Below, piece after piece: positions 6,970-10,188 of a DNA stretch of 41,466 nucleotides. A program made the translations under genes and the position numbers. The stretch comes from Synechococcaceae cyanobacterium (GTDB lineage: Bacteria > Cyanobacteriota > Cyanobacteriia > PCC-6307 > Cyanobiaceae): positions 1 to 41,466 of the forward strand of contig CANEWU010000006.1 in the NCBI GenBank assembly GCA_947442825.1. The letters run 5' to 3'. Each line of letters begins with the position of its first letter. The first letter of the stretch is position 1. The notes below the pieces were generated by a model. That model was given only the letters and a program-made list of their open reading frames with translations. It was not told where the DNA came from and did no database searches.

Positions 6970-8067
6970 TCAAAGGCTCGCGAAGGCCCGCTCCAGTCGC
7001 TCCTGATCAGCGGCGGCCCCCAGTACCACCAGCTCCAGTCCCACGGGCGAGGGCGTTCCGGCGACTTCCTCGGGGGCTTTTCCTTCGTACCAGCACTCCA
7101 GGCGGGTGCCGACGGCCTGGATCTGGAGAAGGAGGGGGCGGTCCGCCTGCCGAAGCCGACCCTTGAGGCGAATCACCGGTTCGCTCGCCAGCAGTCCCCG
7201 CAGGCGATCCTCCAGTGCGGCACGCTCCCACGGGCCTGGACGATGCACCACCAGCGAGGCCATGGCCACATGGGCATGGTCGTGGTGGTCGTGGTCGTGG
7301 TCGTGCTCGTTGTCGTTGTCTTGCGTTCGCGATGGACCCTGCAGCTCCCCATCGAGGATCACGCGCGGATCAAGGTCACCGCGGGCCATCGGCAGAACCC
7401 GTGCCCCCTGGCGCAGCAGTGGCTGCAACCGCTCCTGCACCGCTTCGAGGGCAGCGGCCGTCAGGCGGTCGGCCCGGCTGATCAGCACCAGATCGGCCGC
7501 CTCAAGCTGCTCCTCGAACAGCTCTTCGATCGCGGTGAGATGGTCGAGGCTTGGATCAGCCCGGCGCTGGGCCTCCACCGCCTCCGCGTTGCCCACCACA
7601 TGGCCGGCCCCCAGGGCCTCGCCATCCACCACCGCCACCACCGCATTCACCCGCGTCCGCGTGCGTATCTCCGGCCAGCCGAAAGCGGCCACAAGGGGCT
7701 CAGGAAGCGCCAGACCACTGGTTTCCACCACGATCCCATCGAGCTGATCCGCCCGCTCGAGCAGAAATTCCATCGTGGGCAGGAACTCCTCCTGCACGGT
7801 GCAGCAGAGGCAGCCATTGGCCAGCTCCACGATGCGCCCGGCGCGTTCCTCCTCCGGGCAGAAGCCGCAGCTGGCGATCAGGTCTCCATCGATGCCCACC
7901 TCGCCGAATTCATTGACCAGCACAGCCAGACGGCGACCGCTGTCGAGCAGCAGGCGGCGCAGGAGAGTGGTCTTCCCAGCCCCCAGAAAGCCGGTGATCA
8001 CGGTCACGGGCAGTCGGCGAGGGCGAGGAGAGGCCTCAGCCGGATCCGACGTTGTAGGTGAGGCCAT
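6970..8067 (-). CDS. cobW: CobW-family metal-chaperone GTPase
   Basis: 365 aa COG0523 GTPase. P-loop GFLGAGKTT (residues 26-34), the metal-binding GCLCC motif (85-89), SRAD as the guanine-specificity NKxD equivalent, a His/Asp-rich stretch (about 250-266) and a C-terminal CobW domain (about 267-360). Family members deliver Co2+ or Zn2+ to enzymes or chelatases. The context here (directly downstream of hupE under a cobalamin riboswitch, 6 bp between the genes) argues for the cobalt/B12 branch rather than the Zur-regulated zinc branch. The His-rich loop is encoded by a hexanucleotide repeat, see separate entry. Confidence 0.92.
   Translation of the reverse strand: MASPTTSDPAEASPRPRRLPVTVITGFLGAGKTTLLRRLLLDSGRRLAVLVNEFGEVGIDGDLIASCGFCPEEERAGRIVELANGCLCCTVQEEFLPTMEFLLERADQLDGIVVETSGLALPEPLVAAFGWPEIRTRTRVNAVVAVVDGEALGAGHVVGNAEAVEAQRRADPSLDHLTAIEELFEEQLEAADLVLISRADRLTAAALEAVQERLQPLLRQGARVLPMARGDLDPRVILDGELQGPSRTQDNDNEHDHDHDHHDHAHVAMASLVVHRPGPWERAALEDRLRGLLASEPVIRLKGRLRQADRPLLLQIQAVGTRLECWYEGKAPEEVAGTPSPVGLELVVLGAAADQERLERAFASL
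7278..7322. repeat. GGTCGT hexamer repeat encoding the CobW His/Asp loop
   Basis: Five near-perfect GGTCGT units (with one interrupting GGT) followed by three diverged units. On the minus strand they read alternating Asp/His codons (DHDHDH), with Asn/Glu in the diverged units. Such a repeat could change length by slippage and so vary the number of metal-binding His residues. Confidence 0.8.
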
Positions 8068-8073
8068 CAGATG

Positions 8074-8706
8074 TCAGGCCAGAAGCGGGGCTAAGGCCAG
8101 CAGGGCACCAGACCCTGCTACGGCAAGGGCCAGGACCGTGCGGGTGCGGGGTCCGACCGTCGCCGCCGAAGCGGCCAGCAGCCGCAGGGACACAACCAGC
8201 AGCAGACCCTGGCTCAGCATCAGACCGACCAGGTAAGCCGCCACTGGCATCGCCGTCCAGCCCAGAACGGAGGCGCTCAGCACATAGCCGTGCAGGGCAA
8301 AGGCGGGCAGCAACCACTGACGCGGCACACGCTCCCCCAATACCAGCGCCACCACGATCAGGGAGAGGGCGACCAGGAGTTCGGCCCCGGGAAGGCCGGG
8401 TACCAGCAGACCCACCGCGCTGCCCCCCAGGCCCACGGCGAGCAGCCCCAGCATCCAGCCGGCGCGATGGCGCAGGCCCACCAGCGAGAGGGCAAGCAGA
8501 AACAGCAGGTGGTCGGGGCCGAGCACGGGATGGAACAGACCACTCATCAGGCCGTTCAGAGGCGTGGGCTGCCAGTGGAAGAGTTCGACGGGGTGGTGCG
8601 CCAGCGCTGGCAGACCCGCCAGCAACACCAGGGAAAGCAGGCTGAGAACAGCAAAGTTGCGGCGTCCGGAGGCGCCGCGAAGGGAAGGCTTGATCATCGT
8701 GGACAC
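8074..8706 (-). CDS. hupE: HupE/UreJ-family metal (cobalt or nickel) permease
   Basis: 210 aa integral membrane protein with an N-terminal signal-like helix (about 17-36) followed by His37-His38, then about six hydrophobic segments. The family signature HPxxGxDH is present as HPVLGPDH (59-66). HupE/UreJ proteins take up Ni2+ or Co2+; the upstream cobalamin riboswitch and the downstream cobW point to cobalt. The open frame begins with GTG at 8706, but an ATG at 8697 (MIKPSL) is equally plausible; neither has a strong Shine-Dalgarno, which fits control by a structured leader. Confidence 0.9.
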   Translation of the reverse strand: MSTMIKPSLRGASGRRNFAVLSLLSLVLLAGLPALAHHPVELFHWQPTPLNGLMSGLFHPVLGPDHLLFLLALSLVGLRHRAGWMLGLLAVGLGGSAVGLLVPGLPGAELLVALSLIVVALVLGERVPRQWLLPAFALHGYVLSASVLGWTAMPVAAYLVGLMLSQGLLLVVSLRLLAASAATVGPRTRTVLALAVAGSGALLALAPLLA

Positions 8707-8709
8707 GGT

Positions 8710-8740
8710 CCGCGCCGGTCGGGAAAGAACAAAAACCGGC
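8710..8740 (-). promoter_or_regulatory. Candidate expression-platform hairpin before hupE
   Basis: Reading the minus strand, GCCGGT (plus-strand 8735-8740), directly at the 3' edge of the B12 box, can pair with ACCGGC (8714-8719) just before the start codon. The first arm overlaps the riboswitch end, so ligand binding could control whether the hairpin forms and hides the translation start. No T tract follows, so translational control is more likely than termination. Confidence 0.45.
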
Positions 8741-8890
8741 GGGCGTTCTGGCTGGCTCCCGGGGGAGCGTCACAGCTGCGGGACAGCGCCGGACTTAAGG
8801 AAGAGGGGGGCAGGCCCCCTGCCTCCTGGTCACCGGACTTTCCCCGTTTCCTCCACGGGCTGAACCCCCGTGGAACCGGTCAGAGGCAGT
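8736..8890 (-). promoter_or_regulatory. Cobalamin (B12) riboswitch
   Basis: On the minus strand the region carries the ordered hallmarks of the class: CCGGTTCC at the 5' side, GGGAAAGTCCGGTG, then AGTCCGGCGCTGTCCCGCAG followed by CTGTGAC, and the B12 box GCCAGCCAGAACGCC. This is nearly the textbook consensus. It lies in the 237-bp gap between the pentapeptide gene and hupE and reads into hupE-cobW. Adenosyl- or other cobalamin binding is expected to repress the metal-uptake unit. Confidence 0.93.
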
Positions 8891-8943
8891 GTATCCGCGC
8901 TGGGGCGAACCCGATCATCAATCGCCGAAGCCCAGCCGGAATC

Positions 8944-9477
8944 TCAACGGCAGCCCAGGCTGTCGCGCGTGGTGACCCCGGTGCGGGGGTTCACGCCGGT
9001 GGCACGGGCGCAAAGGGCTTTTTGTTCCGGCAGATCGATCACGGCATCGCTGAAATCAGCGCCCTCCACCTGGGCGCCGCGGAAGCGGCTCTGCATCAGC
9101 ATCGCGTTGCGTAGAACCGCCCCCTCCAGGTTGGCGCCGTCAAAGCGGGTGGCGTACGCCACCACATCGCCCAAATCGGCCCCATGAAGATCGGCATCCT
9201 GGAGGTTGCTGCTGTTGAAGACCGCGCCGCGCAGATCAGCGTCGCTGAAGTCAAAGTGCTGCAGATCGGCCTTGAGGAATTCCTGTTGCTGCAGATTGCG
9301 GCCGTGCATGTCGGGCTGAAGCTCCTGCATCGACCGCTGGGAGCGCAATTCCGGCGCCGTGATGGCTGGGGCAGCCGCGGGGTGCGCCACCAGCACCCCC
9401 ACCAGCAGCAGGGCCGCCAGGAGAGAACGGAGCCAGCGCTCCCCGGCGGTGAGGCGAAGACGAAGGCAGCCCCGCAT
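8944..9477 (-). CDS. Exported pentapeptide-repeat protein (thylakoid lumen type)
   Basis: 177 aa. An N-terminal basic and hydrophobic signal (about 15-40, ending AHPAAAPA) is followed by about 16 pentapeptide units, e.g. [20 protein letters not shown] and GADFSD, predicted to fold as a right-handed beta-helix. The C-terminal segment has two Cys (ALCARATG and the final SLGCR) that could form a disulfide closing the helix. Similar secreted pentapeptide proteins occur in the thylakoid lumen of plants and cyanobacteria; their function is not established. I used the ATG at 9477 because it begins the signal peptide. It diverges from the upp-like gene with only 30 bp between start codons. Confidence 0.85.
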
Positions 9478-9507
9478 GGCTTCAGGCTTACGGTGAAAGG
9501 CCAAGTT

Positions 9508-10188
9508 ATGGCAGGCATGAGCATGTCCCTGCGGGTGGTGGTTCCCCCCCACCCCCTGATCGAACACTGGCTCACCCTGCTGCGCGACCGCCAGACACCC
9601 TCACCGCTTTTCGCCACGGCGATGGGCGAGCTTGGCCGCTGGCTTACCTACGAAGCCCTGCGCGACTGGTTGCCCCAGCGCTCCGTGGAGGTGGAAACGC
9701 CGCTGGAGCGCAGCGAGGGGCGCGTCATCGATCCCGAGGTGCCCCTGCTTGCCGTTCCGGTGCTGCGGGGCGGCCTGGGCCTCTGGGATGGCGCTCGCAC
9801 GGTGCTTCCCGCCGCCCGGGTGGCCCATGTGGGCCTGCAGGCGGAAGGGCCGGGTGAACCTGCCCACTGGTACCTCGACGACCTGCCGGAGGCCATCGGT
9901 GAGCGGGTGGGGCTGTTGGTGTTTCTGCCGGTTCTCGCCAGCGGCGCCACCGCCATCGCCGTTCTGGAACGCCTGAAGGCCCTGGGGGTGGAGGGCCCGC
10001 GTCTGCGGGTGGTCACAAGCCTCTGCGGCGCTCCCGGGCTCAAGGAGCTGGGGGAGCGCTTTCCCTCCCTCACCATTTACGCCGCCGGCATCGACGCGGA
10101 GGTGGACGGGCAACGGCGCCTACGGCCCGGCTTCGGCGACGCTGCCGCCCGCCTCTATGGAACCGCCGGGGCGGGCCCCTTAGGCTGA
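9508..10188 (+). CDS. upp: Uracil phosphoribosyltransferase-like protein with altered active site
   Basis: 226 aa. The N-terminal half aligns with Upp: [13 protein letters not shown], then LTYEALRDW (about 46-54), then [13 protein letters not shown] (83-95). Upp makes UMP from uracil and PRPP. The usual PRPP loop DPMLATGG appears as LPVLASGA (about 140-147), with no acidic residue before the Pro, and the uracil-site motif GDaGDR-FGT appears as [10 protein letters not shown]. It is therefore clearly of the family by fold, but activity is uncertain. The ATG at 9508 has GAAAGG about 8 nt upstream; ATGs at 9517 and 9523 are alternatives. Confidence 0.8.

Follow-up and report, generated by a model that had tools for sequence, protein, structure and literature searches.

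The 41,466-nucleotide stretch of DNA analysed here (the window) carries on its minus strand a cobalamin riboswitch, followed by hupE, encoding a HupE/UreJ-type permease precursor, and cobW, encoding a COG0523 GTPase. With a probability of roughly 0.75 we read this arrangement as a two-gene, B12-repressed operon for cobalt acquisition. The RNA and both genes are present, their order is conserved, a covarying hairpin precedes the start codon, and throughout the family the riboswitch is associated with cobalt genes.

The preliminary description of this DNA had placed a B12 riboswitch at 8736-8890, giving no strand, and had proposed a search with Infernal and the Rfam model RF00174. In this search (cmscan) the aptamer was found at 8721-8895 on the minus strand, enclosing that interval, with 55.9 bits against a gathering threshold of 31.5, an E value of 2.2e-11 for the window and an alignment spanning the full model (1-189). 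Scanning the entire assembly (2,498,031 bases on 209 contigs, 90% complete) yielded this single match (8895-8721). The aptamer displays the L5 core TCCCGC, found in 110 of 111 aptamers, and the RNA is predicted to bind a corrinoid and to alter expression. The P5/L5 region of the aptamer contains an insertion of about 32 nt, rich in G/C (8797-8830, minus strand), that is able to form a hairpin of its own. The gene 5' of the riboswitch (8944-9567, minus strand) encodes pentapeptide repeats and ends 48 bp upstream of it; no sigma-70-like promoter was found at the locus.

The permease gene hupE (8074-8697, minus strand) encodes 207 amino acids and matches PF04955 with 54.2 bits (cut-off 23). Its product has a hydrophobic N-terminal segment (residues 15-33) ending in ALAHH and the motif HPVLGPDH, and thus displays the features of the family: the HPxxGxDH motif, a precursor signal segment and about six helices, according to a hydropathy analysis that gives approximate topology. 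The start codon is most likely ATG 8697, which lies at a conserved distance 3' of the leader hairpin described below; GTG 8706 was rejected as a start, as it overlaps this hairpin. The closest named relative of the protein, 86% identical, is encoded in an uncultured Synechococcaceae MAG (L180), and further relatives carry the names Cyanobium, Synechococcus, Vulcanococcus and Prochlorococcus, which makes a picocyanobacterium the most probable host. HupE had no match in a plasmid search. The second gene, cobW (6970-8067, minus strand), encodes 365 amino acids and matches TIGR02475, a curated model for cobalt-specific COG0523 proteins, with 349.1 bits (equivalog cut-off 332.1), as well as PF02492 and PF07683. 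The permease and the CobW GTPase, 6 bp apart from stop to start, are hence as first described. CobW carries the P-loop GFLGAGKT, the metal motif CLCC and a His/Asp-rich stretch, EHDHDHDHHDHAH. CLCC is present in 59 of 60 CobW proteins encoded behind related HupE genes, and the G4 motif, SRAD in the window protein, is shared by 41 of 60 relatives (the pattern did not match 15).

The hupE start codon follows the aptamer after only 23 nt. Leader sequence and a comparison of 111 leaders place a predicted P13 hairpin, CGG-CGCGGA-CCG, at 8703-8720 (minus strand, limits approximate). Its loop CGCGGA ends 11 nt 5' of ATG 8697, and its stem is short, with 3 bp (CGG/CCG) and a possible bulged extension. 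A hairpin with the loop C[GT]NGG[AT] and a stem of at least three pairs, close 5' of the start codon, occurs in 107 of the 111 leaders, compared with 0.21 leaders expected by chance from mononucleotide shuffles; the loop variants are CGCGGA (54), CGAGGA (48), CTCGGA (3) and CGTGGA (2). Stems of at least four pairs, present in 91 leaders, fall into four covarying types that all keep the pairing (CCGG/CCGG 49, TCGA/TCGA 31, CTGG/CCAG 7 and TCGG/CCGA 4). The L5 consensus UCCCG is known to kiss L13, and P13 controls the ribosome binding site in the translational riboswitches E. coli btuB and env8HyCbl (PMC10653944). As a prediction, the cyanobacterial hairpin fits P13/L13, with a Shine-Dalgarno-like GGA in the loop, and for the window we propose that the loop CGCGGA kisses L5 (TCCCGC) and holds this GGA. 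Both the L5-L13 kissing and the role of P13 in controlling ribosome binding would be shared with btuB and env8HyCbl; in contrast to them, as far as the available passages describe them, the loop CG(A/C)GGA of the cyanobacterial leaders itself carries the Shine-Dalgarno-like GGA (PMC10653944). When the 3' end of the window leader was folded locally by itself, the P13 hairpin was not recovered and another pairing that covers part of the loop was preferred, so we claim no pair of OFF and ON structures.

Control looks translational, and no terminator-like site was found between aptamer and start. Action through transcription termination instead of a translation block appears improbable. A terminator-like hairpin does exist at 8819-8806; however, it sits within the aptamer, chance alone would yield about 1.4 sites of this kind over the scanned stretch, and the 23 nt between aptamer and ATG hold a hairpin with a Shine-Dalgarno-like loop rather than a terminator.

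From these data we infer how the system works, including its ligand, the direction and translational mode of its regulation, cobalt as the substrate and delivery by CobW, as follows. When B12 is scarce, the leader would permit ribosomes to start on hupE, and HupE, which has a signal segment and some six membrane spans, would bring Co2+ across the inner membrane. The GTPase CobW, translated from the same message, would hand Co2+ to a CobN-type chelatase. As adenosyl-corrinoid builds up it would bind the aptamer, upon which L5 (TCCCGC) would kiss the loop CGCGGA just 5' of the start codon and shut off translation. In many waters cobalt is in short supply, and picocyanobacteria synthesise B12-type corrinoids; with importer and chaperone set by one riboswitch message, the operon would form a simple feedback loop for cobalt supply.

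A candidate client of CobW is present in the genome. Two PF02514 proteins are encoded, on contigs C65 (1134.6 bits) and C25 (1220 bits), and from these scores we tentatively read the former as CobN and the latter as ChlH. The adjacency of cobW and cobN, which is usual and not obligatory, was not found here: cobW lies on contig C6 and the cobN-like gene on C65. The B12 pathway gene cobU is located in the window at 1937-2482 on the plus strand (PF02283 150.3 bits; NF004469 152.9 bits, just below the cut-off of 161). It had been named as a nearby pathway step, which holds insofar as a B12 gene is present; however, it forms a separate transcription unit on the other strand. Membership in the operon was rejected, as cobU lies on the opposite strand about 4.5 kb past the end of cobW, and the RF00174 scan of the window detected no separate riboswitch for it.

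The wider distribution of the riboswitch was assessed in 121 related genomes of the family, the genome of the window included. In 88 of these, RF00174 gave 131 matches, 129 over the Rfam cut-off and 2 below it. Altogether, 121 of the 131 precede HupE: 111 have a listed HupE within 600 nt, and 10 HupE genes were added by reading the sequence; BLAST comparison covered all 10 of these, and a Pfam scan 2 of them. The other 10 riboswitches precede CbiM (4), a CbiX chelatase (1), fatty acid desaturases (2), a porin-like gene (1), a short open reading frame (1) and a contig end (1), where the porin (G075), one desaturase (G083) and the short frame (G115) were judged by eye. Given these counts for HupE, CbiM and CbiX, the B12 riboswitch in this cyanobacterial family appears almost wholly given to metal uptake. 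The riboswitch-CbiM units (G044, G054, G083 and G099) resemble the window in having RF00174 before an inner-membrane cobalt permease, and differ in having CbiM where the window has HupE. One genome has riboswitch, HupE and CbiM consecutively on the same strand, an apparent operon with permeases of two kinds (L115, G081:C1:292702-294177).

Among the 150 HupE matches listed, 36, in 35 genomes, have a CobW gene (from a set of 107 above 250 bits) within 600 nt downstream, and a riboswitch leads all 36 of these pairs; an additional pair in G049 was found by reading the sequence. In three genus-mates (G005, G090 and G113) CobW is located away from hupE, so the pairing is not required by the mechanism. 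These three genomes have two back-to-back hupE genes, each riboswitch-led, with the riboswitches about 50 bp apart (L032, L034 and L033, respectively). A set of 80 named loci, kept from 203 relatives, overlaps the 121 genomes and is not independent of them; CobW lies directly behind HupE in 60 of the 80, and RF00174 is over its cut-off in 39 of the 40 scanned. Synechococcus sp. WH 5701 (L252) carries the complete riboswitch-HupE-CobW unit, and WH7803 (L250) has the riboswitch and HupE with no CobW behind HupE. A tree of 149 of the 150 listed HupE proteins (one with an in-frame stop was dropped), computed by a quick method with SH-aLRT support, displays two large parts, I (101 proteins) and II (48 proteins). 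The window HupE belongs to part I and, within it, to a supported group of 35 proteins, 30 of which come from riboswitch-HupE-CobW units. B12 riboswitches lead 31 of the 48 part II genes, and in the back-to-back arrangement one product falls in part I and the other in part II.

The metal was addressed by testing co-occurrence of genes. The presence tests leave out six genomes with HupE matches beyond those listed (G008, G049, G063, G091, G096 and G114); the tests with nickel enzymes include 7 part II and 1 part I genomes added from sequence reading and confirmed by BLAST. Among the HupE matches listed, to which the test with CbiM is confined, 4 of 5 CbiM genomes and 14 of 110 others lack part I HupE (p 0.002; this and the following p values treat related genomes as independent and are therefore too small), as if CbiM could take the place of part I HupE. 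The riboswitch-CbiM genome G054 has no HupE among the matches listed. Part I HupE displays no association with hydrogenase, urease or nickel superoxide dismutase (Ni-SOD) (p 0.78, 0.40 and 0.43), and part II HupE tracks the Hox hydrogenase, which is present in 28 of 39 genomes with part II and 4 of 76 without it (p 7.8e-14).

In the preliminary description, absence of hydrogenase and urease genes from the window had served as an argument for cobalt. This argument fails. The same genome encodes a urease on contig C67, together with what we read as urease accessory genes and a urea ABC transporter (names beyond the alpha subunit were assigned by reading), and a bidirectional Hox-type NiFe hydrogenase on contig C43, whose genes read as hoxEFUYH-like. 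Their absence from 41 kb therefore says nothing on the metal. Better grounds are CobW itself and the comparative data above, which support the proposed import and delivery of cobalt under B12 control; cobalt over nickel is a choice that we infer, and one of the original reasons for it was wrong. The conclusion in favour of cobalt is nevertheless probably right, and published reports on cyanobacterial HupE, in their available parts, agree with it (PMC4284471, PMC7689651, PMC5904137): a Synechocystis hupE mutant is rescued by cobalt or methionine (PMC4284471, PMC7689651), and HupE of this organism is unable to replace the nickel importer (PMC5904137).

Since nickel must enter this cell somehow, a dual role of HupE is conceivable. 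As a nickel/cobalt permease, HupE would also feed urease and Hox, CobW would draw the cobalt share, and B12 would indirectly limit nickel. We regard this as rather unlikely. It would account for a genome with urease and hydrogenase, no recognised nickel importer and a single HupE among the matches listed: in the assembly (90% complete) no CbiM/NikM, NicO or Ni-SOD was detected. The same gene state, urease or hydrogenase together with part I as the sole HupE type and neither CbiM nor Ni-SOD, is found in 11 genomes including this one. An importer may, however, be missed at 90% completeness. Two candidates in this genome were rejected: the sole DsbD_2 match as SodT, which reads as a CcdA-like protein beside an FtsW-like one, and a NikA match (109 bits, cut-off 393), more likely a general peptide-binding protein; the NikA model TIGR02294 is uninformative here, with matches in 108 of 121 genomes and none over its cut-off. 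Against a dual permease stand the missing association of part I HupE with nickel enzymes, the failure of Synechocystis HupE to substitute for the nickel importer, and three riboswitch-HupE genomes (G055, G066 and G107) in which no urease, NiFe hydrogenase or Ni-SOD was detected, though these are 64-82% complete. Urease or hydrogenase is also present in five genomes that lack both HupE and CbiM, which implies another nickel route in the family, perhaps SodT in Ni-SOD genomes. A more specific version, in which the single riboswitch gates nickel for urease and Hox along with cobalt for B12 and CobW sorts out the cobalt, is unlikely as well; if true, urea use and hydrogen metabolism would be tied to B12 in picocyanobacteria.

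It is very improbable that HupE is a nickel permease of the HupE/UreJ kind encoded in urease and hydrogenase clusters and only happens to follow a B12 riboswitch. The family name, the nickel role of members in such clusters (PMC4284471, PMC7689651) and the HPxxGxDH motif in common speak for it. B12 regulation, the pairing with CobW, the replacement by CbiM and the lack of linkage to nickel enzymes argue against it, as does the location of hupE outside both the urease and the hox contig.

B12-riboswitch control of hupE and its function as a cobalt importer in cyanobacteria are already in print (PMC4284471, PMC7689651). The hupE of marine cyanobacteria and of Synechocystis PCC 6803 (slr2135) resembles the window gene as a HupE/UreJ permease with a cobalt role, and the marine gene also in riboswitch control; the available passages of these accounts make no mention of cobW behind hupE (PMC4284471, PMC7689651). 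New here is the joining of cobW to the riboswitch-led hupE. Proteobacterial operons likewise have cobW under a B12 riboswitch, usually, unlike the window, beside cobN in B12 biosynthesis clusters (PMC2770081). A Novosphingobium unit of riboswitch, TonB receptor, NiCoT and CobW also places CobW and a Ni/Co permease together behind a B12 riboswitch, and differs in having NiCoT in place of HupE, an extra TonB receptor and a proteobacterial host (PMC7689651). In metagenomes, cobW and hupE are both among the genes behind B12 elements, their joint placement not being stated in the passages available (PMC2211319). No description of a joint hupE-cobW riboswitch unit was found in the literature searched, which did not extend to papers behind a subscription, the original surveys of 2003 and 2006 among them. 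A 2009 survey, in its available part, states that cobW of cyanobacteria does not cluster with B12 genes and is not under riboswitch control (PMC2770081); the riboswitch-HupE-CobW unit contradicts the latter statement in at least 35 of 121 genomes. The operon is thus real, well conserved and for the most part expected; it corrects the literature on one modest point, and strains whose genomes are public, Synechococcus sp. WH 5701 among them, carry it and would allow direct tests.

Several minor observations accompany the census. A contig filed as Bifidobacterium breve (L254) carries a cyanobacterial riboswitch-HupE-CobW unit, almost surely owing to a binning or labelling error. The riboswitch at G030:C16:16843-17012 (L068, minus strand) lies shortly 5' of a CbiX-type chelatase with a His-rich tail. 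Two further riboswitches lie about 210 nt 5' of fatty acid desaturase genes, at G099:C1:2160650-2160824 (L037, minus strand; PF00487 match) and G083:C1:143064-143238 (L064, plus strand), and a B12 element before the desaturase ole1 has been described in metagenomes (PMC2211319).
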